DNA of 64,000 nucleotides from Methanoculleus bourgensis MS2 (GTDB lineage Archaea; Halobacteriota; Methanomicrobia; Methanomicrobiales; Methanoculleaceae), in contig NC_018227.2 in the NCBI RefSeq assembly GCF_000304355.2, positions 1-64,000 on the forward strand. The letters run 5' to 3'. Position 1 is the stretch's first letter, and each line of letters begins with the position of its first letter. A model generated the notes under the pieces. The model had not been told where the DNA came from. It made no database searches and saw nothing but the letters and a program-made list of their open reading frames with translations. Made by a program: the position numbers and the translations under genes. This document shows, piece after piece, positions 12,967-26,612 of the stretch.

Positions 12967-12986
12967 ATTTCAATATAAATTGTAAT
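12967..12986. promoter_or_regulatory. ArsR operator before arsF/arsG
   Basis: ATTTCAATATAAATTGTAAT contains TTCAA-N6-TTGTA and the TATA-like AATATAAA in its centre, about 30 bp before the start at 13015. The 286 bp before it (12681-12966) hold no supportable gene. Confidence 0.7.
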
Positions 12987-13014
12987 GCTGGACCAAGCAC
13001 CAGGGGTGTCCCTG

Positions 13015-13554
13015 ATGAGACGAACACAATCAAGCAATTCCAAACCACGGCGCATGCGGGCAGAGTTTGCCTGCAGCGCATCCGGACGGAATATCCTGCC
13101 GTTAGCCATTCTAGCGGCACTCCTCGCCTGCACCGCCCTCTTCACAGGATGTGTATCATCACCCGACGGAGTGGGTGCCACTACCGCCCCGCCGCTCAAC
13201 GGCACCGTCACCAAGGTCGAGGTCATCCACTTCACCGCGCCGAACCAGTGCCACTCCTGCGTGGTGCTCGGTGATTACGCCGAGGAGACCGTAAAGACGC
13301 ACTTCTCCGAAGAACTCGGCTCCGGGAAGCTGGTCTTCGACCACATTGATGTTGCCGACCCACAGCAGCAGGAGATCGTCGAGCGCTACGGTGCAACCGG
13401 CTCGTCGCTCTGGCTTGGCACCTACGACGACCAGGGCGGGTTCTCTAAAGAAGAGGACATCCGGGTCTGGTACAAACTCAACGACAAGCCCGGTTACATG
13501 CAGTATCTCAAGACGCTGATCGGGATGCGTCTCGCCGGGGACTTCTCGCAATGA
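13015..13554 (+). CDS. arsF: ArsF-like thioredoxin-fold lipoprotein
   Basis: A 179-residue exported protein: basic N-terminus, hydrophobic segment and lipobox LFTGC (Cys 46), then a thioredoxin-like domain with CHSC at 79-82. It matches the family annotated as ArsF, found next to ArsG permeases. I recall that family from arsenic loci; the nitroreductase label used for some members is not supported by anything here. The ATG at 13015 has AGGGGTG six bases upstream; an ATG at 12985 overlaps the operator and is unlikely. It overlaps arsG by ATGA. Confidence 0.8.
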   Translation: MRRTQSSNSKPRRMRAEFACSASGRNILPLAILAALLACTALFTGCVSSPDGVGATTAPPLNGTVTKVEVIHFTAPNQCHSCVVLGDYAEETVKTHFSEELGSGKLVFDHIDVADPQQQEIVERYGATGSSLWLGTYDDQGGFSKEEDIRVWYKLNDKPGYMQYLKTLIGMRLAGDFSQ

Positions 13555-14267
13555 GCCTGATGGGGTTCATGGAGACGATGGGGACGAGTAGCGTCCCCCT
13601 CGTCGCCGCGTTCTTCATCGGGCTGATGATGGCCCTCTCTCCCTGCCCGCTTGCGACAAACGTCGCCGCGATCGGCTACCTCTCCCGCCGGATAGGGAGC
13701 CCGGGGCAGACCATCCTTGCCGGGGCGCTCTACAGCGCGGGGAGGATGGCCGTCTACGTCGGGCTCGCGGCGCTTATTGTCATCTTCGGCCTCTCCGTCC
13801 AGGGGATCTCGCTCTTCCTCCAGACCTGGGGCGAGGTGCTCGTCGGCCCGCTGCTGATCGGGATCGGGGTCGTGATGCTCGATCTCATTCCGCTCCCCTC
13901 CTGGAGGGGCGGGGGCAGGCGATTTGCCGCGTTCAAGGAGCGGGTTGCCGATCAGGGGCTGGCAGGGAGTTTTCTCCTCGGCGTGCTCTTCGCACTGACC
14001 TTCTGCCCGTTCTCGGCGGTGCTCTTCTTTGCGATGCTCGTCCCGCTGGCGCTCCGGACCTCTGATCCGCTCGGCGTCCCGGCGGTCTTTGCCGTCGCCA
14101 CCGCCCTGCCGGTGATCGCGTTCTCGCTGATCATGGTGACCGGGGTCGCGAAGGTGGGGAGCGCGATGAAAGCGGCGGAGAAGTTTGAGTACTGGACGCG
14201 GCGCATTGTCGGGGTGTTCTTCATCGGGATCGGGGTCTACCTCCTCGCGGCAATGCTGTTTGGGTGA
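13551..14267 (+). CDS. arsG: ArsG-like permease (DsbD/CcdA superfamily)
   Basis: A 238-residue membrane protein with six predicted helices in two homologous halves. Each half has a Pro-Cys motif near the start of a helix (SPCPLATN near residue 31 and TFCPFSAVLFF near 150), as in CcdA/DsbD proteins that shuttle electrons across the membrane. Its coupling to the exported CHSC protein suggests that the pair moves reducing equivalents to the outside or exports an arsenical. Translation is coupled to the preceding gene. Confidence 0.8.
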   Translation: MSLMGFMETMGTSSVPLVAAFFIGLMMALSPCPLATNVAAIGYLSRRIGSPGQTILAGALYSAGRMAVYVGLAALIVIFGLSVQGISLFLQTWGEVLVGPLLIGIGVVMLDLIPLPSWRGGGRRFAAFKERVADQGLAGSFLLGVLFALTFCPFSAVLFFAMLVPLALRTSDPLGVPAVFAVATALPVIAFSLIMVTGVAKVGSAMKAAEKFEYWTRRIVGVFFIGIGVYLLAAMLFG

Positions 14268-14432
14268 TGCCCTTCCTGTGGGGCCAGTGCTCTTTCGGCA
14301 CTGTGGGGAACCTTCCTGTGGCTGCCCGGAAAACTCCCGCAGCCCTTCTCTCCTTCCATGCCGCGCTCCTGTCCACGTTTGGTCTGAAGACTACACTGTC
14401 CTGCAGGTCCCTGCCGCATACTGTTCCACACC

Positions 14433-14452
14433 ACTTCAATTTTTGTTGAAAT
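14433..14452. promoter_or_regulatory. ArsR operator, site 1 of a pair
   Basis: ACTTCAATTTTTGTTGAAAT contains perfect TTCAA-N6-TTGAA. The region 14268-14432 between arsG and this site has no gene. Confidence 0.75.
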
Positions 14453-14484
14453 GGAAACCTTCATACGCCAGCACCACCAACAGT

Positions 14485-14504
14485 AATTCAAATCTGATTG
14501 AAAC
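14485..14504. promoter_or_regulatory. ArsR operator, site 2 of a pair
   Basis: AATTCAAATCTGATTGAAAC contains perfect TTCAA-N6-TTGAA. Its centre is 52 bp from site 1, five helical turns, so dimers would bind on the same face of the DNA. Confidence 0.75.
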
Positions 14505-14533
14505 TCCCCGGCGCACCGACCGGGGCAGACGTG

Positions 14534-14695
14534 ATGACCATGACAGGCGAGAAAGATAACAAAGAAGGAACAAAAATAGGATCGCGGATAAAGAACCTCT
14601 TCTCCTCGGGCTGTGGCTGCGGCACCGGCGGCGGCTGCTGCGGTACCAGGATCGTCCCGAAGAAGAAGGAAGAACCTGACACAGGAGAGCAGTAA
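14534..14695 (+). CDS. Small cysteine/glycine-rich peptide
   Basis: A 53-residue peptide (start at 14534 or the ATG at 14540) with a charged N-terminal half and a cluster GCGCGTGGGCCG, five cysteines in twelve residues, followed by TRIVPKKKEE. The cluster resembles the linker of the DGC-DUF2703 fusion. It lies directly behind a double ArsR operator and ahead of an ArsP-type permease, so a metallothionein-like arsenite-binding or delivery peptide is a reasonable guess. A cysteine-rich modified-peptide precursor cannot be excluded. An in-frame ATG at 14498 lies inside the operator. Confidence 0.65.
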   Translation: MTMTGEKDNKEGTKIGSRIKNLFSSGCGCGTGGGCCGTRIVPKKKEEPDTGEQ

Positions 14696-14718
14696 ACTAT
14701 CGGTGAGGGAGAGATCTG

Positions 14719-15630
14719 ATGGACCTTCTGGCAACGCTTGCCACCGCCGGGCAGTTCTTTGTCGTGATCGCCGGGGAACTGATCCTGCTCTTTGTCGGGA
14801 TCACGTTCCTCGTCGGGCTGCTCCAGGCCTACATCCCTGAAGAGCGGATCCGCAGCGTGCTTGCCGGGAGGCGGCAGGGTGTCGGGAACGTCATCGGGGC
14901 CGGGTTCGGGGCGCTCACCCCGTTCTGTTCCTGCTCGACCATCCCCATCCTGCTCGGGCTCCTTGAGGTCGGGATCCCCTTCGGGGTCTGCATGTCGTTC
15001 CTGCTCGCATCCCCGCTCCTAAACCCGATAATCCTCTCACTTCTCGTCGCGCTCATCGGGGTCGTGCCGACCGCCGTCTACGCTGCCGTCACCTTCACCG
15101 CCGCCGTCGGCATAGGCTGGCTTCTCGGGCGGCTCGGCTACGGGCGCTACGTCAAGGACGTGATGGTTGAAGGAAGACCGGAGCCCTGTGACTGTGCCGT
15201 TGCCGTAAGCCACGGCACCCGCATCCGCAGGGCATTCTCTTTCGCAGTCAGTCTCTTCCGGCAGGTGCTCCCCTACCTCCTCCTCGGTGCGGGCATCGGC
15301 GCGTTCATCTACGGATTCATCCCTGAAGGCCTGATCGTCTCCCTCGCCGGGCCAAATAACCCGCTTGCCATCCCGGTGGCAGCGGTGATCGGGGTGCCGA
15401 TGTATATCCGGGCAGAGACGATCATCCCCATCAGTGCCGTCCTCCTCGAGAAGGGGATGGGCATCGGGGCGGTCATGGCCCTGATCATCGGCGGCGCGGG
15501 GGCAAGCATCCCGGAAGTGACGCTCCTTGCTGCGATCTTCGAACGGAGGCTGGTCGCCGCCTTTGTGGCGACGATCCTCACGGTCGCCGTCCTTGCCGGC
15601 GTCGTGTTCCAGGTGCTCAGCGTGATCTGA
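14719..15630 (+). CDS. ArsP/DUF318-type permease 2
   Basis: A 303-residue polytopic permease of the same superfamily as the gene at 9577 but only distantly similar. The signature TPFCSCSTIPILLGLLEVG is near residue 71, and the second half carries GVPMYIRAETIIPI. A cytosolic loop near residue 155 holds CDC. It follows the Cys-rich peptide by 23 bp with a purine-rich ribosome site. Confidence 0.85.
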   Translation: MDLLATLATAGQFFVVIAGELILLFVGITFLVGLLQAYIPEERIRSVLAGRRQGVGNVIGAGFGALTPFCSCSTIPILLGLLEVGIPFGVCMSFLLASPLLNPIILSLLVALIGVVPTAVYAAVTFTAAVGIGWLLGRLGYGRYVKDVMVEGRPEPCDCAVAVSHGTRIRRAFSFAVSLFRQVLPYLLLGAGIGAFIYGFIPEGLIVSLAGPNNPLAIPVAAVIGVPMYIRAETIIPISAVLLEKGMGIGAVMALIIGGAGASIPEVTLLAAIFERRLVAAFVATILTVAVLAGVVFQVLSVI

Positions 15631-15656
15631 CCTGCCCGTCATGAGGTGAACGAACC

Positions 15657-15737
15657 ATGGATGAGAAACCCTGTTCTGCCGCGGATGCGCTGTATGCCGC
15701 CGCGCTTGCGGGAGAGCTCCGGCCTGGCGGGTGGTGA
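15657..15737 (+). CDS. 26-residue peptide, apparent truncated paralogue of the 10662 gene
   Basis: Begins MDEKPCSAADALYAAALAGE, close to the EKPCCAAEAL start of the protein at 10662, then stops at 15737. A strong ribosome site GAGGTGA lies nine bases upstream. No continuation is found in other frames before acr3 starts at 15744, so the rest is deleted or this is a deliberately short peptide. Confidence 0.5.
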   Translation: MDEKPCSAADALYAAALAGELRPGGW

Positions 15738-15743
15738 CCGGCG

Positions 15744-16838
15744 ATGGGCACCACCGACCAGGGGACCTCCGGCTCCCGGCTCTCGTTCCTCGACCGCTAC
15801 CTGACCCTCTGGATCATCCTTGCCATGGTGGCCGGGGTCGCCGTCGGCTACTTCGTCCCCGCGGTCCCGGCAGCGATCACGGGGTTTTCGGTCGGGACAA
15901 CCTCGATCCCCATCGCCATCGGGCTGATCCTGATGATGTACCCGCCGCTTGCGAAGGTCCGGTACGAGGAGCTCGGGCTGGTCTTCCGGGACAGGAAGGT
16001 GCTCGGCCTCTCCGTCGTCCAGAACTGGGTCGTCGGTCCGGTGCTGATGTTCCTCCTTGCGGCGTTCTTCCTTGCGGGCCGGCCTGAGTTCATGTACGGC
16101 CTTATCCTGGTGGGCCTTGCCCGGTGCATCGCGATGGTGATCGTCTGGAACGACCTTGCCGGGGGCGATTGCGACTACTGTGCCGCCATCGTGGGCTTGA
16201 ACTCCGTCTTCCAGGTGCTCTTCTATGCCCTCTACGCCTACGTCTTCATCACCGTCCTCCCGCCGCTCCTCGGGATCGGGGCCGGGACGGAGGTGCCGAT
16301 CACGATCTCGGGCGTCGCCGCGACGGTCTTTGTCTACCTCGGTATCCCGTTCATCGCCGGGTTCGTCACCCGGTTCACGCTCCTCCGTGTGAGGTCGAAG
16401 GAGTGGTACCATGAGCGGTTCATCCCGAAGATCTCGCCGATCACGCTCATCGCCCTGCTCTTCACGATCGTCGTGATGTTCTCGACCCAGGGTGGGAACA
16501 TCGTCGCGCTCCCGCTGGACGTCCTCAGGATCGCCATTCCGCTCACGATCTACTTCCTCGCGATGTTCTTCGTCTCGTTCTGGATGTCCTGGAGGCTCGG
16601 GGTCGACTACGGCCGGAGCACGGCGCTTTCGTTCACTGCGGCAAGCAACAACTTTGAACTTGCTATCGCCGTCGCCATCGGGGCCTTTGGGATCGGATCC
16701 GGTGTGGCGTTTGCCACTGTCATCGGCCCGCTGATCGAGGTCCCGGTGCTGATATCGCTCGTGAACGTGGCGCTTCTGATCCGGGACCGGTGGTACGGGG
16801 GAGAGGCGATGGGAAGATATCCCATTAATTCCCAGTAG
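15744..16838 (+). CDS. acr3: Arsenite efflux permease Acr3
   Basis: A 364-residue member of the bile-acid/arsenite (ACR3) superfamily that expels As(OH)3. The family hallmark [16 protein letters not shown], with the conserved transport cysteine, is near residue 130. [20 protein letters not shown] is near residue 298, and about ten membrane helices are present. It is in the operon begun by the Cys-rich peptide. Confidence 0.95.
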
Positions 16839-16848
16839 AGATGGTATC

Positions 16849-17241
16849 ATGAAGAAGGAACTCGTCATCGAATGGAAGCACATCGGAAAAGACATTGAGC
16901 ACACCTGTGAGCGGTGCGAGGAGACCGGGATGGCGCTCAATGCGGTTCTCGCGGAGATCAGCATGCTCCTTGAGATGGAGGGAGTCAGCGTGCGGATAAT
17001 CGAGACCGTCATCGAAAACGACGCGGTCGCGGAGTCAAACAGCCTCCTCTTCAACGGGGTGCCGATCGAGGAACTCCTCGAGGGGATCGAGGTGACCACC
17101 ACGCCCTGCGGCTCCTGCTCCTGCATCACCTGCGATGCGGAGACGGAGTGCCGGGCGCTCCGCTATAACGGCGAGGAGTACGAGGCGATCCCGCCGGACT
17201 TGATCGGGCGGGCGGCCGCAAAAGCGCTTGAGATGGAGTGA
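16849..17241 (+). CDS. DUF2703 protein (stand-alone)
   Basis: A 130-residue protein closely similar to the C-terminal half of the fusion at 11411. It conserves HTCERCEETG, the ESNSLLFNG segment and the TPCGSCSCITC cluster. The cysteine clusters suggest metal or metalloid binding. It follows acr3 by 10 bp. Its function is unknown. Confidence 0.85.
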   Translation: MKKELVIEWKHIGKDIEHTCERCEETGMALNAVLAEISMLLEMEGVSVRIIETVIENDAVAESNSLLFNGVPIEELLEGIEVTTTPCGSCSCITCDAETECRALRYNGEEYEAIPPDLIGRAAAKALEME

Positions 17242-17245
17242 AGTT

Positions 17246-17610
17246 GTGGCGGATCCCGTCACCCTCATCACCTGTTCCGGCCTCTCGAAGACCGGGAAAC
17301 TGACCAACCCCGGGCGGGCATGGTGCTCCTGCGGGCGAGTCCGGGCCTTGTGGAGGCATGCGTCCCGGCAGACCGGCCGCAGGTGTTGCTTGAGGAGGCG
17401 GCGCGCTACGCAGAGCGGATCCTCGTGCTCGACGGGTGCAGCGATGCCTGTGCGCTCCGGAAACTCCAGGGGATCGGGGTCGAGCCGGACCTGCACATTA
17501 TCGCGACCGAGTGCGGGATAGCAAAAGGCGGCATGGCAGAGCCCCAGTTCGACGAGATCGAGAGGCTCGCCGGGGCCTTGCTCGCGGTCCTCCGGGGCGA
17601 GAGGGAGTGA
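17246..17610 (+). pseudogene. DGC zinc-binding domain protein, frameshifted
   Basis: From GTG 17246 (ribosome site GGAGTGA) the first frame gives LITCSGLSKTGKLTNPGRA, the typical DGC-family start. The continuation, in a different frame from about 17320, carries LDGCSDACALRKLQ and ends at 17610. One missing base around 17311-17320 (GGGCGGGC) separates them; the repaired product is 121 residues. The same domain is fused to DUF2703 in the gene at 11411, and here it again follows DUF2703. Confidence 0.75.
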
Positions 17611-17837: not shown

Positions 17838-17854
17838 TATTTGTTAACATCATT
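17838..17854. promoter_or_regulatory. Putative metal-regulator operator before the binding-protein gene
   Basis: The core TGTTAACAT (17842-17850) is identical to the centre of the perfect palindrome at 25218-25233, which precedes the matching permease operon. A TATA-like TTTTAAATAA lies about 20 bp further on. Confidence 0.55.
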
Positions 17855-17958
17855 GTAGAGTTAAATAGGTATTTTAAATAAGGCTCACGTCCCAACTACG
17901 GTACCAGAATCCTCCGATACCTCCCGTCCAGGAGCGTGCCGGAGAAGACCGAACGGAC

Positions 17959-19041
17959 GTGGTAATTATTACAAAACGTTGTCATATTCTGCTTGTAATG
18001 CTCGGAGTCTGTGCAGTTCTCCTCTGCGCCTCCGCTGCATGCACCGGCACCCAGACCATCGAATCCCCTGCAGAAAACCGCACGATCACCGATATGGCGG
18101 GCCGGACCGTCGTCGTGCCGTCGGAGATCAAGAGCGTCCTCTGCACCTCGCCGCCGTCGACCAATCTCGTCTATATGGTCGCGCCCGACCGGCTTGCGGG
18201 CTGGAGCTTCCTGCCTGAGAAGGAGTACACCCCCGAGAAATACGCAGCGCTCCCGGTCGTCGGGGGCTGGTTCGGGAAAGAGACCGGCAACTACGAGAAC
18301 TTCATATCGATGCATCCCGACATCGTCATCGAGGGCTACACCACCGACGGCGGGGCGGCGCGCGCTACCGTCGCCGAACGGCAGGAGAAGATGGGTTCCA
18401 TCCCGGTCGTCGCCGTCGAGGATACCACCAACTCCACCGGCTACTCCGCCCCCATCAGGTTCATGGGCGAACTCCTCGGTGAGGAGGAGCAGGCCGAAGC
18501 GATGATCGCCTTCTACGAGGGCGTGCTCGCCACGGTGACGGAGCGGGTGGCCTCGATCCCCGACGACGAACGGGTGGGGGTCTACTACGCCGAGGGTCCC
18601 AGGGGGCTCACGACCGATCCCACTGGCTCGCAGCACTCCGAACTCATCGAACTCTGCGGTGGGAGAAACATTGCAGATTGCGCGATCACGCCCGGGATAG
18701 GGATGACCGAGGTCTCGATGGAGCAGATCATCGCCTGGGATCCAGAAGTCATCCTGGCCGGGGATCCGGGGTTCTACGCCACGGTCTGGACCGACCCGCT
18801 CTGGCAGGACATCACCGCCGTGAAGAATGGCCGGGTCTACCTCACCCCGCGGACGGCGTTCTGCTGGTTCGACCGCCCGCCCGGCATCAACCGGATCATC
18901 GGGATCGCCTGGACCGCGAAAGTCCTCTACCCGGACCTCTTCGGCGACATGGACCTTGAGGGCCTCGTCCGGGAGTATCACGAGACATTCATCCACGTAT
19001 CGCTCACCGACGACCAGATTCACCAGATCCTGAATCCCTGA
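17959..19041 (+). CDS. Metal-chelate ABC transporter substrate-binding lipoprotein
   Basis: A 360-residue exported lipoprotein of the FecB/BtuF helical-backbone binding family. It has a signal peptide with lipobox-like ASAAC (Cys 28), then ITDMAGRTVVVPSEIKSV, a typical domain start. Further motifs are SMHPDIVIEGY, EQIIAWDPEVILAGD and NGRVYLTPRTAF. Siderophore-iron, cobalamin and related chelates are the usual ligands. Its permease and ATPase are encoded 5 kb away on the other strand under a similar operator. The start (GTG 17959) lacks a clear ribosome site; the ATG at 17998 would truncate the signal peptide. Confidence 0.88.
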   Translation: MVIITKRCHILLVMLGVCAVLLCASAACTGTQTIESPAENRTITDMAGRTVVVPSEIKSVLCTSPPSTNLVYMVAPDRLAGWSFLPEKEYTPEKYAALPVVGGWFGKETGNYENFISMHPDIVIEGYTTDGGAARATVAERQEKMGSIPVVAVEDTTNSTGYSAPIRFMGELLGEEEQAEAMIAFYEGVLATVTERVASIPDDERVGVYYAEGPRGLTTDPTGSQHSELIELCGGRNIADCAITPGIGMTEVSMEQIIAWDPEVILAGDPGFYATVWTDPLWQDITAVKNGRVYLTPRTAFCWFDRPPGINRIIGIAWTAKVLYPDLFGDMDLEGLVREYHETFIHVSLTDDQIHQILNP

Positions 19042-19047
19042 GGCCTG

Positions 19048-19686
19048 ATGAGCATGGGACATGAAAAGGACCGTGAGGGGGCACAGCGCATGGACCGGGT
19101 CGCAAAGACCACCTTTGCCCCGGTCTACCCGGTGATCGCGGAGCAGATCCTTGACCGGTGCGGGATCTCCCGCGGCCGGTGTCTCGACGTCGGCAGCGGC
19201 CCCGGGTCGCTCGGGATCGCGCTTGCGCGGGCGAGCGATCTTGCGGTCACGCTCCTCGACTCCTCCCCCGATATGCTCGAGACCGCCGAGGGGAACATCA
19301 GGGAGGCTGGGCTTTCGGGCCGCCTCTCGCTCCTTCGAGGCGACGTCCACGCGATCCCGCTCCCCGCGGGGTCGGTCGACCTCGTGGTCAGCCGCGGCTC
19401 GGTCTTCTTCTGGGAGGACCTTGCCCGGGCGTTCTCCGAGATCTACCGGGTGCTTGCGCCCGGCGGGAAGACCTACGTCGGGGGCGGGTTCGGGAACGCC
19501 GAACTTCGGGACTCGATCACGGCCACGATGACGAGGGAGAACCCTGACTGGAAGAGTTTCCGCGATAAAAACCTCGGCCCTGATAACCGGGCGCGGATCG
19601 CAGGCGTCCTCGCGGATCTCGGGCACTGTCACCGGATCATCAACGACGACTCAGGGCTCTGGGTCATGATGGAGAAGGGGGAGTAG
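19048..19686 (+). CDS. Class I SAM-dependent methyltransferase
   Basis: A 212-residue Rossmann methyltransferase. Motif I, CLDVGSGPGSLG, is near residues 45-56, the acidic end of strand 2 is LLDSSPDM, and an LAPGGKTYVGGGF post-motif block follows. It is of the UbiE/small-molecule type, with a substrate that cannot be deduced. It sits 6 bp after the binding protein and 2 bp before a radical-SAM gene, so it is co-transcribed with both. A role in modifying the imported chelate or a cofactor made from it is an inference from position. Confidence 0.85.
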   Translation: MSMGHEKDREGAQRMDRVAKTTFAPVYPVIAEQILDRCGISRGRCLDVGSGPGSLGIALARASDLAVTLLDSSPDMLETAEGNIREAGLSGRLSLLRGDVHAIPLPAGSVDLVVSRGSVFFWEDLARAFSEIYRVLAPGGKTYVGGGFGNAELRDSITATMTRENPDWKSFRDKNLGPDNRARIAGVLADLGHCHRIINDDSGLWVMMEKGE

Positions 19687-19688
19687 GC

Positions 19689-21426
19689 ATGCGGTGCTCT
19701 ATCTGCGAGAACCGGTGTGTCATCCCGCTCGGGGGGACCGGGCGGTGCAGGATGTACACAAACGAGGACGGGGCGATCGTCGAGCGGTTCCCCGACCACT
19801 ACATCGCTGCCATGCCGATATCCATCGAGACGATGCCGATGTGCCATTACCACCCCCGGGAGACGTTCCTGCAGGCGAGCGGCATCGGGTGCACCTTCTC
19901 CTGCGGGGGGTGCATATCAGAGACGGTCGCCCACCACGCCGAGGCAGTCTCCGGCGCCCTCAAGCATATCCCGCCCGCCGCCCTGGTCAGGCGCGCCCGG
20001 GAGGAGGGGTGCCGGGGGATCGCGTTCTGCCTCAACGACCCGACCGCCATGCACCAGACCTTCCTCCGGGTGGCGCGGGCGGCGCACGATGCGGGGCTCC
20101 TGGTCGGGTGCGCGACAAACGGCTACTACACCGAAGAGTCCCTCCGTGACCTTACGCCCGCCATCGACTTCGCAAACATCGGGCTGAAAGGCGTGTCTGA
20201 TGCGTGCTACCGCGCATGCGGGGCGGTCTCGGCCGAACCGACCTTCAGGACGGTGCGGGCGCTTCATGATGCAGGCGTCCACGTCGAAGTCTCCTGCATC
20301 TACGCCCGGGGTTCTCGCGACGAACTCCGCGCCGCTGCCGCCCGGGTTGCGGAGATATCCCCTGATATCCCGTTCCTCGTTATGCGGTTCATACCGTTCG
20401 GCGACGAGCCCCCGGAGAGGGAGCCGACGATCGCTGAGTCCGAGCAGATCTGCGACGAACTGCGACGGACGCTCTCCTACGTCTACCTCTTCAACTCGCC
20501 CGGAACTGAGTATCTCAATACGGCGTGCCCCTCCTGCGGGGAGACGGTCGTCAGGCGGGAGTTCTTCGGGCCGATGGGGGCGCGGACGATCGCGATACCC
20601 GCGGATGCCCGGTGCTCCTGCGGGTTTTCGCTTCCCGGTGGTCGGGAGTATCGGGGAGATGCCCTACGCCGAGCCCGGTATGATGGGCGGCTACCGGTTC
20701 ACGAGGGCGCTTGAGATGGTCCACGCCATCCTGGTCTGCCTTGGTGTTACGTCTGACGCCGACCTCGCCCGGATCTGGGCCGGGGTGATCAGGGACGACT
20801 TTATCCATGACCTCCACGGGAAGATCCAGCGGATAGACGGGTACCTCGGCCTCATCCGTGAGCTCGGGGAGCGATCGGGCCGCCCAGAGGCGGCGGAGCG
20901 GCTCGCCTCCTACATCAGCGACCAGGTGGCTTTGGTCTCGTCGGCGGTCGAGGGCTGCCGCCGGCCCCGGGTCTACTACTCGATGGGGACACCGCTCTTT
21001 GCCCTGAACGCCGAGCGGTTCGAGATGGACCTCGTGGAGGCGGCCGGCGGCGACCCGGTCAACCGCAGGATCGAACGTGCCGGGAAACCGGGCGTCAACA
21101 TAACCCCGGAAGAGTTTGCCGCGTTCAACCCAGAGTACATATTCATATCAGGGTTCCTCTCGGCACCGGCCTCAGATTACCTTGCGGCATGCCGGAGGAT
21201 GGGGCTTTCCGCCGACGCCATCGAGCTCGGCCGAGTCTACACCATGCCGCCGGGCTGGGACTTCGGCAACCCCCGCTGGGTTCTCGGCCTCACCGCCATC
21301 GCCGGCACCCTCCACCCGGAGCGTGCTAAATTCGACATTGCTGCAGAACAGGACCGGTTCTACCGGACGTTTTACGGGACCAGCGCAGCCGCGGTATCAG
21401 GAAACAGGTCGTTCTACCGCCCGTAG
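19689..21426 (+). pseudogene. Radical-SAM protein fused to a binding-protein-like domain, frameshifted (copy 1)
   Basis: The N-terminal frame (19689-20628) has a zinc-ribbon-like start (Cys 3, 6, 10, 20), the radical-SAM triad CTFSCGGC (Cys 68, 72, 75) and a second CPSCG...CSCG ribbon. The family resembles PflX-type activases. The frame would end at 20714, but the homologous continuation runs in the +1 frame from about 20629 to 21426. Dropping one T of TTTT at 20625-20628 gives a 578-residue protein collinear with the intact 575-residue copy on the other strand. The C-terminal ~150 residues resemble the second lobe of FecB/BtuF proteins but lack a signal peptide. Confidence 0.8.
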
Positions 21427-23141
21427 GTGATCTCCCCGCCCACCGCACGGACGCACGAGAGCACCGCTTCCTCGACCTCCCCCGGGGCCGGGCACCCGGC
21501 GTTGGGGTGGAGGATGCCTGCCACGGCCGCGATCGATGCCGCCCACCCGAGGAACCCCGTCTTTTTTCCGGCCGGGAGCCGGTATACGGCACCCCGCCTC
21601 ACCGCTTCTGTGAGCACTCCCGCATCAAGGCAGGCCCGGACAAAGGTCTCCGTATCGACCGGGGCGACCGCCTGGTAGAATACGACCTCCGGCCGGAGCG
21701 CCTCGATCTCCCGGGCCGTGACCGGTCGTGCGTCCCGGTCGCTCCGTCCCAGGTTACGGTTCACCGGGTAGCCGCCGGCGGAACTGATGAGCGAGATCTC
21801 CGGTTTGTCGGCAAAGAGCGGGACCAGGGGGTGGCCGAGCGCCACATAGACCCGTGGCCGCCCCATACCGACGGTCTTATCCCTGATCCCTGATACGATT
21901 GAAAGGAGATCCGAGGCGAGCTGCTCCCCCTCGTCCGGCCTTCCGCCGGCGGCCGCATATGACCGGAGGGCAGAGCAGAACCCCCGTGGCGTGGCTATCC
22001 TCTCGTGGAGCGTCGAGAGCCCCCCGCTTGCGAGTTCAGCGGCAAGAACCCTGCCCTGCGCCGCCCGGTCGGTGACGCCCGCCGCCGCGAGCATGCCCCG
22101 GATGAGCTCAAGCCCGCGCGTGGGCCGGTAGCCGCCGGCGTACCTCGCCTCAGGCCGCCACTCTGTGGTCATCCGGCCTGATACCGGCACCCTCGCGCCG
22201 CACGCGCACCGCTCTCCCGGGTGCACCCACTCGTTCCTTGCCCCCATCGGCCCATTGAAGGCCCGCCTGATGAGGATGCGCCCGCAGGCCGGGCACCTGG
22301 TGGAGAGCCGGCTCGTCCCCGGGGTGTTGAAGAGGTAGACGTTCTCGAGGATCGAGGAGACCGTCTCTGCAAGGTCTTCGGCCTCGCATGCCGCAGGCGC
22401 TCTCTCCTCCTCTCCTCCAGAGAACGGCATAAAGCGCATGATCTGGAAGGGGATGGCGGCGTCCGTAGCGGCAACCCTCTCCGCGGCCGAGACGACCTCA
22501 CCCTCGCGGCCCCGCACGTAGACCGCCGAGACCTCGACGTGGACACCCGCCTCATGAAGCGCCCGCACCGTTCTGAAGGCCGGCCCGGCCGAGGCGCCGC
22601 CGCACTCCCGGTAACACGCATCAGACGCCCCTTTCAGCCCCACGTTGACACAGTCGAGGAGCGGCGCGAGGGCACACGTAGCCTCGTCCCCCAGGTAGCC
22701 GTTTGTCGAGCACCCGAAGAGCAGCCCGGCATCGTGTGCGGCATCAGCAAGGCGGAGGACGGTCGGCAGGGATACCGCGGGCTCGTTGATGCAGAAGAGG
22801 ATTCCCCGGCATCCTGCTGCCTCTGCTTCACTGACCACTTCGTCAGGCGGCAGGCGCACGAGTGCCCCGGTGAGGGTGCCGGGGTCGGTGGTCAGGATTG
22901 CTGAGACGCATCCGGGGCAGGAGAGGTTGCAACCGACTGAGGAGACGGCATAGAAGGTATGTCCCGGCCAGAAATGAAGGAAAGGGACCGTCTCTATGGC
23001 GGTCGGGTAGCGTGCCAGGTAGGAGTCGGGGAAGACCTCGACGGCCGCTCCTCCGGCACCCCGGTACATGCCGCATCTGCCGCACTCCCCCTCAGGGATC
23101 AGGCAGTGGTGTGCGCAACAGCGGCACTCATGCGTTAGCAT
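21414..23141 (-). CDS. Radical-SAM protein fused to a cytosolic binding-protein-like domain (copy 2, intact)
   Basis: A 575-residue three-part protein. Residues 1-330 are a radical-SAM domain of the PflX/activase type, with N-terminal Cys cluster, CNLSCPGC (Cys 71, 75, 78), the glycine-rich ATNGY-like SAM region (CSTNGYLGD) and a closing zinc ribbon CPACG...CACG. Residues ~333-427 are helical. Residues 428-575 start RPRVYVALGHPLVPLF and resemble the C-terminal lobe of FecB/BtuF binding proteins. No signal peptide is present, so this lobe is cytosolic. The gene is the last of the permease-ATPase operon and meets copy 1 tail to tail with a 13-bp overlap. Substrate unknown. Confidence 0.85.
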   Translation of the reverse strand: MLTHECRCCAHHCLIPEGECGRCGMYRGAGGAAVEVFPDSYLARYPTAIETVPFLHFWPGHTFYAVSSVGCNLSCPGCVSAILTTDPGTLTGALVRLPPDEVVSEAEAAGCRGILFCINEPAVSLPTVLRLADAAHDAGLLFGCSTNGYLGDEATCALAPLLDCVNVGLKGASDACYRECGGASAGPAFRTVRALHEAGVHVEVSAVYVRGREGEVVSAAERVAATDAAIPFQIMRFMPFSGGEEERAPAACEAEDLAETVSSILENVYLFNTPGTSRLSTRCPACGRILIRRAFNGPMGARNEWVHPGERCACGARVPVSGRMTTEWRPEARYAGGYRPTRGLELIRGMLAAAGVTDRAAQGRVLAAELASGGLSTLHERIATPRGFCSALRSYAAAGGRPDEGEQLASDLLSIVSGIRDKTVGMGRPRVYVALGHPLVPLFADKPEISLISSAGGYPVNRNLGRSDRDARPVTAREIEALRPEVVFYQAVAPVDTETFVRACLDAGVLTEAVRRGAVYRLPAGKKTGFLGWAASIAAVAGILHPNAGCPAPGEVEEAVLSCVRAVGGEITYGR

Positions 23142-23186
23142 CCCGCTTCTCTTCCTTTGCCGCGGTGGATCGCGGTATCGGGGTCA

Positions 23187-23990
23187 TTATGCCTCCCCTT
23201 TGCCCCGGCAGCCGCAGGGGTTTATCGGGATGCAGACCGTCCGCCCGGCCTCCTCGATGTAGTGGACGCAGATATCGACCCCGTATGCTTCACGGAGGTT
23301 CTCCTTCGTGATGACGTCCTCGGCCGGTCCTTTCGCGATCAACCTGCCGTCCTGGAGGATGGCGGCCGAATGCGAGACCAGGAATGCGTGGTCGGGGAAG
23401 TGGGTGCACATCAGGATGGCGATCCCGTCGGCGGCGAGGCGGTCGATCGTCGCGATCACCTTCATCTGGTTGCCGATATCGAGGTGCGACGTCGGTTCGT
23501 CGAGGATGAGCAGCGAGGGCTCCTGGGCGAGGGCGCGGGCGATCATCACCATCTGCGCTTCCCCGCCAGACATCTCTGAGATGGGCTTCTCCCGGAGATG
23601 GGATATCCCGATCCGCGCAAACGCTTCATCCGCCTTCTCGTAGTCCTCCTCTTTCGGGACCGAGAAGGTCGAGATATGGGGTGCCCTCCCCATGAGGACG
23701 AAGTCAAGCGCCGAGAAAGGGAAGACGGAACGGTGGCCCTGGGGGACGTAGCCGACCTCCCGCGCGACCTCGTCGGGCCGCATACTGCTGACCCGGCGGC
23801 CGTTGATCTCCACCTCCCCCTTCTGGAGCGTGAGGATGTTTAGGATGCACTTGATCAGGGTCGATTTTCCCGTGCCGTTCCTCCCGAGGAGGGAGAGAAC
23901 CTCTCCTCTCCGGAGGGAGAGGGAGACATCTTCAAACTGTTTTGTGATGCCGTCGTATGAGAACGACGCGCACTTGACGTTCAGAATCAT
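23187..23990 (-). CDS. Metal-chelate ABC transporter ATP-binding protein
   Basis: A 267-residue FecE/BtuD-type ATPase with Walker A GRNGTGKS, Q-loop YVPQGH, signature MSGGEAQ, Walker B LLILDEPTSHLD and the H-loop THFPDH. The start at 23990 overlaps the permease stop by ATGA. The C-terminal tail ends PCGCRGKG, two cysteines not usual in the family, which might touch metal or the radical-SAM partners (speculation). Confidence 0.93.
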   Translation of the reverse strand: MILNVKCASFSYDGITKQFEDVSLSLRRGEVLSLLGRNGTGKSTLIKCILNILTLQKGEVEINGRRVSSMRPDEVAREVGYVPQGHRSVFPFSALDFVLMGRAPHISTFSVPKEEDYEKADEAFARIGISHLREKPISEMSGGEAQMVMIARALAQEPSLLILDEPTSHLDIGNQMKVIATIDRLAADGIAILMCTHFPDHAFLVSHSAAILQDGRLIAKGPAEDVITKENLREAYGVDICVHYIEEAGRTVCIPINPCGCRGKGEA

Positions 23991-25171
23991 GTCCAGCCGA
24001 CCTTCTTTTGTGTTAAGAGGTATGCGAAGAACGGCGCGCCGACGAGCGCCGTCAGGATGCCGAGCGGGATCTCGGCTGCGGTCAGGGTTCTTGCGATATC
24101 GTCGACGACGAGAAGGAACGAGGCCCCGAGGATGGCTGATACCGGGATGAGCCTGCGGAAATCGGGGCCGACGAGCATTCTTCCTATATGGGGCACGACG
24201 AGACCCACCCAACCGACGATCCCGCTGATGCAGACCGCTGAGGCGGTGATGACGGTTGAGGCGACGATGAGCACCACGGTCATCCTCTTCGTGTCGAGCC
24301 CGAGTGCCTGCGCCTCCTCTTCGCCAACCGCGAGGAGGTTGATCCGCCACCTGATGAGAAAGAGGCAGAGGCTCCCGAGAAGAATCGGCGGGGCGACCGC
24401 GATGATCTCGGCGTTTGAGACCGCAGAGAGGCTTCCCATCAGCCAGAAGACGATCGCAGGCAGGGTATCGTAAGGGTCGGCGGCGTATTTGGCGAGGGAG
24501 AGGAGGGCGGAGAAGAGGGAGCCGACGATGATCCCCGCGAGGACGAGGACGAGGGTCGAGGAGTTGTGGTAGACGCGGCCGATGCCGTAGGTGACGGCGA
24601 CCGCGACGATCCCGAAGATGAAGGCAGAGACCTGGATGATCCCGGGGTTGCCGGAGATGAGGATCCCGAGCGCCGCCCCGAACCCGGCGCCGGCGGAGAC
24701 GCCGAGGATATCGGGAGAGACGAGGGGGTTTCTGAAGAGGCCCTGGAACGAGGCGCCGGCGATGGCGAGCCCTCCGCCGACGAGCATCGCTGCTATCACC
24801 CGCGGGAGCCTGATCCGGAAGACGACCGTCTGTTCTGATGCCCCCCAGGTCTGCTCAAAGGAGGGGAGGAGGACCTGATGGCCTGAGAGTGCCGAGAGCA
24901 GGGATGATCCCCAGTCGAGGAGTGCGTTTGCCGACCCGATGACGAGGATCCGGAGCGTCTCCACCGGTTCCATCATGTACCTCCCGAAGAAGAGGGAGAA
25001 GAAGAAGAGGGCGACCGGGAGGAGGTAGATCGCCCTCTCTACCGGGATGTGCCGGAGGACGGTCTCATAGACCGGCGTGTCGCTGCGGTAGGGAACCCAC
25101 GGAGGAGTGATTGTGACGTTCCTTTCGGGCTCCTGCCCGGTCTCTGCGGTCGTTTCTTTCCCGAAGGTCAT
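23987..25171 (-). CDS. Metal-chelate ABC transporter permease (FecCD family)
   Basis: A 394-residue permease with a hydrophilic N-terminal extension of about 50 residues. The FecCD core follows with roughly ten helices: the LPRVIAAMLVGGGLAIAGAS start motif, GVSAGAGFGAALGI, and GIVGWVGLVVPHIGRMLVG near the end, which contacts the ATPase. Translation from the ATG at 25171 is favoured because the upstream in-frame stretch contains the operator at 25218. Confidence 0.92.
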   Translation of the reverse strand: MTFGKETTAETGQEPERNVTITPPWVPYRSDTPVYETVLRHIPVERAIYLLPVALFFFSLFFGRYMMEPVETLRILVIGSANALLDWGSSLLSALSGHQVLLPSFEQTWGASEQTVVFRIRLPRVIAAMLVGGGLAIAGASFQGLFRNPLVSPDILGVSAGAGFGAALGILISGNPGIIQVSAFIFGIVAVAVTYGIGRVYHNSSTLVLVLAGIIVGSLFSALLSLAKYAADPYDTLPAIVFWLMGSLSAVSNAEIIAVAPPILLGSLCLFLIRWRINLLAVGEEEAQALGLDTKRMTVVLIVASTVITASAVCISGIVGWVGLVVPHIGRMLVGPDFRRLIPVSAILGASFLLVVDDIARTLTAAEIPLGILTALVGAPFFAYLLTQKKVGWT

Positions 25172-25217
25172 CCGGCGCACCAGTTCATAGCATATCTGGA
25201 TACCACATTTATTTAAT

Positions 25218-25233
25218 TTTATGTTAACATAAA
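25218..25233. promoter_or_regulatory. Perfect 16-bp palindrome, putative metal-regulator operator
   Basis: TTTATGTTAACATAAA is an exact palindrome about 47 bp upstream of the permease start, in an AT-rich island that also supplies the TATA box. Its core recurs at 17842-17850. DtxR/MntR-type regulators bind such sites, but no regulator gene of this type is in the window. Confidence 0.7.
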
Positions 25234-25592: not shown

Positions 25593-26285
25593 TCACCCCT
25601 CGGGGCTGTAGCGCCTTCGGAGGATTGTCGGGGTATCTGCGGAGGCTCCGGCGGCGGCGCCTGCAAGCACCGGGGGTTCGAAGGCGTTGCGGCCCCCGGG
25701 AAGCGGGGGTACCGGGAGACCGGATCTCGTCTGGGCCTCCCGCCACTCCCAGATGGCGTCCATCACGTCGCTTGCCGTCGCCATCACGCTCGCGGTCCTG
25801 ACATCCACCACCACCGGGTTTCTGATCTCCCAGTTCTGGATAGCCGTATCGAGGAGCCGGCGCCGGACGGTCCAGACCATCGGGGGGTGCGGGAGCGTGA
25901 CCAACCGGTCGATCTGGTCAGCCCAGACCGCGCCCTGGAGCTCGAACCGTCCCACTTCGTCGATGACCATGAGGTCGGTCTCCCGTGGGTCAGGCGGGAC
26001 GAGCGCCCTGCGGCCGAAGGCGAGCCCTTCGGGCCGGAAGTAGTAGCGACCATGGACCTCGCACCGCGGATCGGGGTCGATCGAACAGAGTTCCTCGTGC
26101 TCGCCGGTGGCGAGGTTGATGAGGGTAAATCCGGATCTCCTGCCGTCCCGTACGTGGCCGGGAGCGAGAACGCCCCTGATCCGGACGTTTGCCCCGACGG
26201 TGAGGCTGAGGACCAGGTGCAGGAACGTCGTCTTGCACTGGCCCTGCTCGCCGGTGATGATAAAGACAGGCGTCTGGTCGCTCAT
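25593..26285 (-). CDS. P-loop NTPase of the THEP1/NTPase_1 type
   Basis: A 230-residue nucleotide hydrolase. Walker A is GEQGQCKTT (residues 12-20), a Walker B-like LMVIDEVGRFE is near 123, and the RIRGVLAPGHVRDGRRSGF segment followed by LINLATGE is typical of this family. The C-terminal 40 residues are a glycine/alanine-rich tail. The start at 26285 is preferred over 26330, because the family begins just before the P-loop. The cellular role of these NTPases is unclear; here it lies beside the metal-uptake locus and may or may not belong to it. Confidence 0.75.
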   Translation of the reverse strand: MSDQTPVFIITGEQGQCKTTFLHLVLSLTVGANVRIRGVLAPGHVRDGRRSGFTLINLATGEHEELCSIDPDPRCEVHGRYYFRPEGLAFGRRALVPPDPRETDLMVIDEVGRFELQGAVWADQIDRLVTLPHPPMVWTVRRRLLDTAIQNWEIRNPVVVDVRTASVMATASDVMDAIWEWREAQTRSGLPVPPLPGGRNAFEPPVLAGAAAGASADTPTILRRRYSPEG

Positions 26286-26612
26286 CCGGGAAGACCCCCG
26301 CTGCCGGAGTACATGCATATACTTCTGCAACAGCCCATATAAAACATTTTTACTTCAGACAATTGTTCAGGTGATACTATTGACTCCGGCATTCCTGAGC
26401 CTGATAACCAATTCCGGCTCGCCTCAACCCAGGTGACGAGACTGAGCCCGGCGTTGCGATCGCATTGAGTGGCAGACCCGGTAATTCGCTCATTTTGGCA
26501 CCTGGCAGCGATGTGGCGCATGCGATGCTGCAACGAGGAGTCGGTAGCACCCGGACTCCACGTTCTCCCGCGTGCATTCGCGTGAGGTGATGTACAGGGG
26601 TAACGAACAAGG

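Follow-up and report, generated by a model that had tools for sequence, protein, structure and literature searches.

A radical-SAM enzyme fused to a binding-protein lobe accompanies a predicted MolABC-type molybdenum/tungsten importer in Methanoculleus bourgensis and other anaerobes

A FecBCD-type importer locus with two radical-SAM fusion genes

The locus lies within a 64,000-nt window, the whole stretch of Methanoculleus bourgensis MS2 DNA that was analysed, and has the genes of a FecBCD-type importer divided between two convergent operons. This layout, read from the bare DNA in an earlier note together with a SAM methyltransferase gene in the left operon, was confirmed on both points by gene calls and Pfam matches. 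The features are as follows:

17842-17850 (+): left promoter element TGTTAACAT, a short way upstream of a TATA-like TTAAATA (17861-17867)
17959-19041 (+): extracytoplasmic substrate-binding lipoprotein, MolA-like; GTG start, lipobox-like ASAACTG, Pfam PF01497 (E=1.3e-25)
19048-19686 (+): class I SAM methyltransferase, partner of the radical-SAM fusion family; Pfam match, PDB 3dlc (E=2.5e-73)
19689-20714 (+): N-part of the left fusion, a frameshift-truncated radical-SAM ORF of 341 aa; extra G at 20637/20638
20659-21426 (+): C-part of the left fusion, binding-protein lobe in the +1 frame; Peripla_BP_2 (E=1.1e-5), C-terminal domain (CTD) profile (E=2.7e-111)
21414-23141 (-): right radical-SAM/binding-protein fusion, intact, 575 aa, a divergent paralogue; Radical_SAM match and fold evidence
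23187-24005 (-): ABC ATPase, MolC-like; PDB HI1470 (2nq2_C)
23987-25171 (-): FecCD-type permease, MolB-like; PF01032 (E=2.8e-85), PDB HI1471 (2nq2_A)
25221-25230 (strand not assigned): right promoter element ATGTTAACAT, with TGTTAACAT exact at 25222
25593-26330 (-): NTPase_1 (THEP1-like) P-loop gene, a recurrent neighbour of the module; PF03266 (E=1.7e-18)

Each operon had been described as ending in a radical-SAM protein of about 575 residues, which holds for the right operon and not for the left, where a single additional G at 20637/20638 shifts the frame and the lobe reads on in another frame to 21426, with a possible restart ATG at 20659. The frameshift rules out the left copy as an ordinary 575-aa protein. 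Its orthologues in close relatives (L034 and L072) are unbroken, and the extra G may be a sequencing error or a real mutation.

The exact occurrence of TGTTAACAT at both promoters (17842 and 25222), pointed out earlier, stands, but the site they share is not a conserved operator. In the Methanoculleus genomes compared, M. bourgensis included, TTAACAT is kept in six of seven left promoters and in two of six right ones, and the exact palindrome is not conserved among them. Nor is the site in excess in the genome, with 47 matches against 42 for the reversed pattern when one mismatch is allowed. Of the two other exact TTGTTAACAT sites inspected, one is close to a heterodisulfide-reductase-like and a ParA-like gene (L174) and the other has no recognisable Mo/W gene nearby (L175). 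The poor conservation and the lack of a genome-wide excess give no support to TGTTAACAT as the marker of a regulon or as an operator that is conserved. A possible arsenic link comes from upstream genes for Acr3 and ArsP-like proteins, which are found beside the locus in Methanoculleus relatives only.

Fold and distribution of the fusion

The radical-SAM half of the fusion carries a CxxxCxxC motif, whose cysteines C71, C75 and C78 are invariant across 45 sequences, and matches Pfam Radical_SAM (PF04055, E=1.9e-13). AlphaFold models of the right fusion (pLDDT 90.2, pTM 0.88) and of an intact left orthologue (pLDDT 92.2, pTM 0.91) gave PDB fold matches for both halves. The C-half resembles FecB-type binding proteins (Z 16-22; MolA 3psa, Z 18.5), and a profile of the lobe recovers ordinary members of that family at E values down to about 1e-26; the possibility raised earlier, that this domain is unrelated to binding proteins, is thereby dismissed. 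The lobe is clearly identified by this fold and profile evidence despite Peripla_BP_2 scores below the Pfam cut-off of 27.5 bits (17.4 bits for residues 386-524 of the right copy, 25.4 bits for the left copy). What the fusion retains of Peripla_BP_2 is the C-lobe and the inter-lobe helix; the N-lobe beta-sheet is absent, model residues about 330-429 being helical and without strands. The earlier note was right about the likeness to the C-terminal lobe of FecB/BtuF and about the absence of a leader, but the lobe spans the final ~235 residues of the right fusion rather than ~150, and about residues 334-581 of the intact left orthologue. No signal peptide or leader is visible in the fusion sequence, in which the lobe sits behind a radical-SAM half starting CxxCxxxC; the binding-protein lobe is cytosolic.

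The closest solved fold to the N-half is that of pyruvate formate-lyase (PFL) activating enzyme (3cb8, Z 20.8), with which it shares 14% identity. Such a match would suit a sensor or docking role for the lobe, with the radical-SAM half activating or modifying a protein in the manner of a PFL activase and so coupling that protein to Mo/W status. However, neither a glycyl-radical partner in the neighbourhood survey nor any glycyl-radical enzyme family among the top neighbour families was found, and such a role leaves the methyltransferase pairing unexplained; of the readings considered here we give it the least credence. The N-half also aligns over most of the NCBIfam model for AmrS/AmmeMemoRadiSam (TIGR04337; E=5e-25 and 6e-31), but the two copies score 88.1 and 107.7 bits, well below the 220-bit cut-off, and the fusion differs from AmrS in its additional binding-protein lobe and in its neighbours. 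Literature searches, like the earlier note, came upon no description of a radical-SAM/binding-protein-lobe fusion; a proteome study of Methanococcus voltae on FeS2 concerns different radical-SAM proteins.

The survey of such fusions that had been proposed for archaea revealed a widespread family, present in Methanomicrobiales, Methanosarcinales, sulfate reducers and syntrophs, and hence in both archaea and bacteria. The fusion is usually accompanied by a methyltransferase, found nearby at 30 of 40 archaeal loci against 1 of 40 controls, and often by an importer in the same operon; an NTPase_1 gene is nearby at 10 of 40 loci (controls, 0 of 40). In the tree every fused lobe falls into one clade (support 99) and 33 operon binding proteins into another (100), the fused lobe not being adjacent to the operon's own binding proteins. 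Descent of the lobe from the operon's own binding protein, which we had considered, is therefore not what these two separate clades show. Among the genomes searched, the right paralogue is found only in M. bourgensis MS2, G048 and G074, and its lobe lacks 23 of 51 family-conserved residues. Since stand-alone radical-SAM relatives without the lobe occupy similar operons (L277, L279 and L281), the lobe is not always needed.

Transporter type and the link to molybdenum and tungsten

The importer was compared with MolABC (HI1472/HI1471/HI1470; PDB 3psa/3psh, 2nq2), through which Haemophilus influenzae takes up molybdate. Among solved structures the permease matches MolB (HI1471, 2nq2_A) best, at 238 bits against 173 for FhuB, 168 for HmuU and 144 for BtuC, a margin of 65 bits; for three other permeases of the same genome, used as paralogue controls, HmuU comes out on top instead and MolB is in fourth or last place. 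For the ATPase, the top PDB match, HI1470 (2nq2_C), is also the sole one at E<1e-40, the paralogue controls having covered the permease. The binding protein matches MolA (HI_1472, 3psa) at E=1.9e-22, and at E=6e-44 with the operon profile, 4pag and 4ovk scoring higher than 3psa. Our best reading of these rankings is that permease, ATPase and binding protein form a predicted MolABC-type (BtuCD-fold) Mo/W importer. To our knowledge MolABC is not accompanied by a radical-SAM enzyme or methyltransferase, both of which are present here.

Regulatory RNAs of bacterial relatives point to the same metals. In Rfam scans covering about 40 bacterial loci, a Moco RNA (RF01055) lies immediately upstream of fusion-bearing operons in L111, L118, L120 and L268, and a Moco-II RNA (RF01713) in L132 and L134. 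Of about 35 bacterial loci with the fusion, 6 thus have such an RNA directly upstream and about 29 do not; a further RNA of this kind precedes a stand-alone homologue (L280). In those of these genomes where they were counted, they number only 3-15 genome-wide. Moco RNAs precede genes for Mo/W transport and for the cofactor, with at least 15 in S. wolfei, and have been proposed as sensors of the cofactor; the part of that report available to us mentions no radical-SAM fusion among the controlled operons and lists other genes as of unknown function (PMC2408646). TonB channels have been noted near molybdopterin riboswitches in Pelobacter carbinolicus, where the sections available describe no radical-SAM/binding-protein fusion or conserved module (PMC3543383).

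In archaea, ModABC genes directly precede the methyltransferase-fusion pair in L039 and are divergent from it in L068, and ModB is near the fusion in L050 and L056. An unbiased neighbour scan returned ModB four times and ModA, MoeA, XdhC and FmdE twice each, none of which appears among the 25 top families of the controls. From the transporter ranking, the Moco and Moco-II riboswitches in bacteria and the ModABC, FmdE, MoeA and XdhC neighbours in archaea, the metal of the module is very probably molybdenum or tungsten. The earlier suggestion of an imported metal complex, for which tests with Fe, Co and Ni were proposed, is upheld as to uptake, with Mo/W instead as the most likely metal.

An iron, cobalt (corrinoid), nickel or haem system, its Mo/W link reflecting chromosomal neighbourhoods shared in anaerobes, might be argued from the many metals handled by the FecBCD superfamily, from the NCBIfam search, in which a BtuC model ranks first for the permease and no MolB model is listed, and from the Nik-type transporter that L045 has close to the fusion. 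We consider it very improbable, in view of the MolB ranking with its paralogue controls and of the top 25 neighbour families, which include no Fe, Co or Ni family. Cobalamin uptake in particular was rejected: across the bacterial loci scanned, the only cobalamin riboswitch (L276) is downstream of the fusion. The Moco riboswitches, as proposed cofactor sensors (PMC2408646), and the MoeA and XdhC neighbours could also mean that what the module takes up, modifies or salvages is not a metal chelate but a pterin-type Mo/W cofactor (Moco/Tuco or a precursor), its enzymes remodelling the pterin. But MolA and other metal-type proteins are the nearest matches of the binding proteins, and none of the core genes matched a pterin-binding family; we regard this reading as quite improbable.

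Proposed processing of the imported ligand

The computation supports the gene content, both folds, the single clade, the co-occurrence with importer and methyltransferase, riboswitch control in bacterial relatives and the Mo/W neighbours. The core idea advanced earlier, of metal uptake combined with a cytosolic radical-SAM/lobe protein and a methyltransferase, stands on gene content, fold and co-occurrence. Our preferred explanation, with a probability of roughly 0.4, is MolABC-type Mo/W acquisition in which the cytosolic radical-SAM/lobe enzyme and the methyltransferase process the ligand and thereby free the metal for Moco/Tuco assembly. The importer would take in molybdenum or tungsten as an oxyanion or a chelate, and in the cytosol the C-lobe would capture this species or its ligand beside the radical-SAM active site. 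The 5'-deoxyadenosyl radical and then the co-encoded methyltransferase would alter the ligand and so release the metal. Three points here are our inference: binding of the imported species by the lobe, the ligand as substrate, and a reaction that breaks rather than makes. In L039 the methyltransferase-fusion pair accompanies ModABC with no FecBCD at the locus, so a chelate imported by FecBCD is not necessarily what the pair acts on.

Methyltransferases make up 23 of 125 neighbours against 2 of 119 in controls, many loci carrying several, and this strong enrichment is compatible with ligand synthesis as well as with breakdown. The radical-SAM enzyme and methyltransferase(s) might thus build a small Mo/W metallophore in the cytosol. 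Once secreted, it would pick up metal and return through the MolABC-type transporter, with help from a TonB receptor in Gram-negative relatives and with the lobe recognising the finished ligand. TonB receptors in the fusion operon (L132 and L134) and Opp/Nik-type importers (L045, L085 and L135) would fit such a scheme. We nonetheless think it rather unlikely, as no exporter, ligase or NRPS family is among the top neighbour families and a synthase with a lobe that binds its own product would be prone to product inhibition.

Ligand processing that frees the metal may, more tentatively, represent an undescribed anaerobic Mo/W pathway, in which a single fusion event joined the lobe to a radical-SAM enzyme, the resulting cytosolic receptor-enzyme passes the imported Mo/W complex straight into its radical active site and frees the metal, and methylation caps the spent ligand. 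If true, this would be the anaerobic equivalent of siderophore or haem breakdown, common to archaea and bacteria. How anaerobes supply scarce Mo/W to formate and formylmethanofuran dehydrogenases in sulfidic settings is poorly understood, and a module of methanogens, sulfate reducers and syntrophs that riboswitches link to the Mo/W cofactor and that includes a putative receptor-enzyme fusion provides a concrete and testable lead. It also suggests a function for many genes annotated merely as iron-complex transporter or radical SAM protein.

The module and its two fusion copies

The window is the beginning of one single 2.79-Mb contig, and the flagged 7.4 kb consist of a pair of convergent operons, left (+) and right (-):

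17959-19041, +, binding protein
19048-19686, +, methyltransferase
from 19689, +, left radical-SAM protein
21414-23141, -, radical-SAM/binding-protein (PBP) fusion, intact
23187-24005, -, ATPase
23987-25171, -, permease

The closest relative in the named collection, Methanoculleus chikugoensis, shares 96% identity over the right fusion. The earlier note had each operon ending in a ~575-residue fusion, but on the left an extra G at 20637/20638, relative to loci L034, L038 and L072 of other genomes, interrupts the gene: its radical-SAM ORF is 341 aa long, and the lobe follows as a separate ORF in the +1 frame. Independently, the reading frame of a second species (genome G075, locus L038) is cut short by a stop codon within the linker affected here, and the domain boundary may tolerate splitting. 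The usual layout in other Methanoculleus genomes is binding protein, methyltransferase and fusion facing ATPase and permease, with the right paralogue absent; at >80% identity, this paralogue was found, among the genomes searched, only in the window genome, G048 and G074. Since its lobe keeps 28 of 51 family-conserved residues, compared to 71 of 78 for its radical-SAM half, the only intact fusion of the window is the divergent one.

AlphaFold models of the right fusion (pLDDT 90.2, pTM 0.88) and of the intact left orthologue from L034 (pLDDT 92.2, pTM 0.91) concur: PFL-activating enzyme is matched by residues ~34-336, at a Z of about 19-21, and FecB-type binding proteins by residues ~340-575, for which 4hn9 gives the top Z of 21.7 and MolA 18.5. 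Both models have the inter-lobe helix and C-lobe but lack the N-lobe beta-sheet of FecB-type proteins. A lobe profile also retrieved ordinary binding proteins genome-wide and in the PDB. The structural proposal of the earlier note, a radical-SAM protein joined to a binding-protein lobe, holds.

An arsenic-type cluster adjoins the module (12985-17610: thioredoxin-fold lipoprotein, CcdA-like, ArsP-like permease, Acr3/SBF transporter, DUF2703 and DGC-type protein) and is retained beside it in several Methanoculleus genomes, with Acr3 in L064 and L072.

Distribution of the family

The fusion is a real family common to archaea and bacteria. Full-length members occur across Methanomicrobiales and in Methanosarcina, Methanolobus, Methanohalophilus and Methanolliviera, and in bacterial-labelled records of Desulfobacula, Desulfovibrio, Pelobacter, Syntrophomonas, Pelotomaculum, Desulfosporosinus and Synergistales (names are from record labels, and some records are metagenome bins). 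In a quick tree all fused lobes, archaeal and bacterial together, form one clade (support 99), separate from that of the operon binding proteins (n=33, support 100). Methanosarcina and Methanolobus have five-gene operons (binding protein, methyltransferase, fusion, permease, ATPase), and bacteria have such operons in other gene orders.

Stand-alone relatives of the radical-SAM half (~340 residues, without lobe) are encoded beside their own FecBCD set in L277, L279, L281, L114, L119 and L121. In the first three the importer operons are similar to the fusion's, and the tie of this radical-SAM family to importers is therefore broader than the fusion; in G611 (L280) a Moco riboswitch precedes the stand-alone gene.

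An Opp/Nik-type ABC importer adjoins the fusion in L045, L085 and L135, with an NTPase_1 gene directly upstream of it in the first two. In Desulfosporosinus (L129:6199-9905), nitrogenase-like NifD/NifK/NifH lie between transporter/methyltransferase and fusion.

Metal specificity

The metal, left open by the earlier note, can be narrowed with good confidence (about 85%) to molybdenum/tungsten on three lines: transporter type, regulation and archaeal neighbours. The window permease scored 238 bits with HI1471 (MolB of the Haemophilus influenzae molybdate importer), compared to 173 with FhuB, 168 with HmuU and 144 with BtuC; HI1470 (MolC) was the sole match of the ATPase under 1e-40, and the binding protein matches MolA. 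The HI1471-best ranking is not general to archaeal permeases, since for three other FecCD permeases of this genome HmuU is the top match and HI1471 comes fourth or last.

Directly before same-strand fusion operons lie Moco RNA (RF01055; L111, L118, L120, L268) or Moco-II RNA (RF01713; L132, L134), counted genomes having 10-15 RF01055 (Syntrophomonas-type) or 3-4 RF01713 elements. The chance of a Moco RNA at 4 of 10 Syntrophomonas-class fusions is roughly ~5e-5 if a density of 15 elements per 3.2 Mb and a target of 5 kb are assumed, the true value being higher because L118 and L120 are close relatives.

In L039 a complete ModABC, its modA and modB scoring above the NCBIfam cut-offs, stands immediately before the methyltransferase and fusion genes, and in L068 ModA lies divergently together with a ModB-like permease and a WtpC-like ATPase. 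An unbiased neighbour scan recovered ModB, ModA, MoeA, XdhC and FmdE, none of them in the top 25 of the control set, and no Fe, Co or Ni family among its own top 25; aldehyde ferredoxin oxidoreductase is among the neighbours in L137, a Desulfovibrio-type locus. In 17-kb archaeal loci (n=40), compared to 40 random regions from the same genomes, the fusion's neighbours included methyltransferases (30/40 vs 1/40), permeases (17/40 vs 1/40), DUF364 (13/40 vs 1/40), NTPase_1 (10/40 vs 0/40), FmdE (8/40 vs 1/40) and ModB/WtpB (6/40 vs 1/40, not significant alone), with Fisher p-values indicative only, as loci of related genomes are not independent.

Possible breaking or making of a ligand

L062, L066 and L089 have several methyltransferase ORFs of one subfamily around the fusion, with DUF364 and FmdE, suggestive of a small cluster for biosynthesis or catabolism. 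One random control region (L229, G197) resembles the fusion loci but lacks the fusion itself, its cluster comprising binding proteins, permease, methyltransferases, DUF364 and FmdE.

Computation shows the parts of the module, their folds and their association. In the proposed mechanism, the lobe would hand a Mo/W species taken up by the cell to the radical-SAM site, and radical-SAM enzyme and methyltransferase would alter its ligand. That these two enzymes make a ligand is a serious rival reading given the abundance of methyltransferases in its surroundings (23/125 neighbours of the fusion vs 2/119 in controls), but no exporter or assembly enzyme recurs among the top neighbour families. For this reason, and because a high-affinity receptor is sensible on a breakdown enzyme and methylated donor atoms would stop re-chelation, we favour breaking of the ligand.
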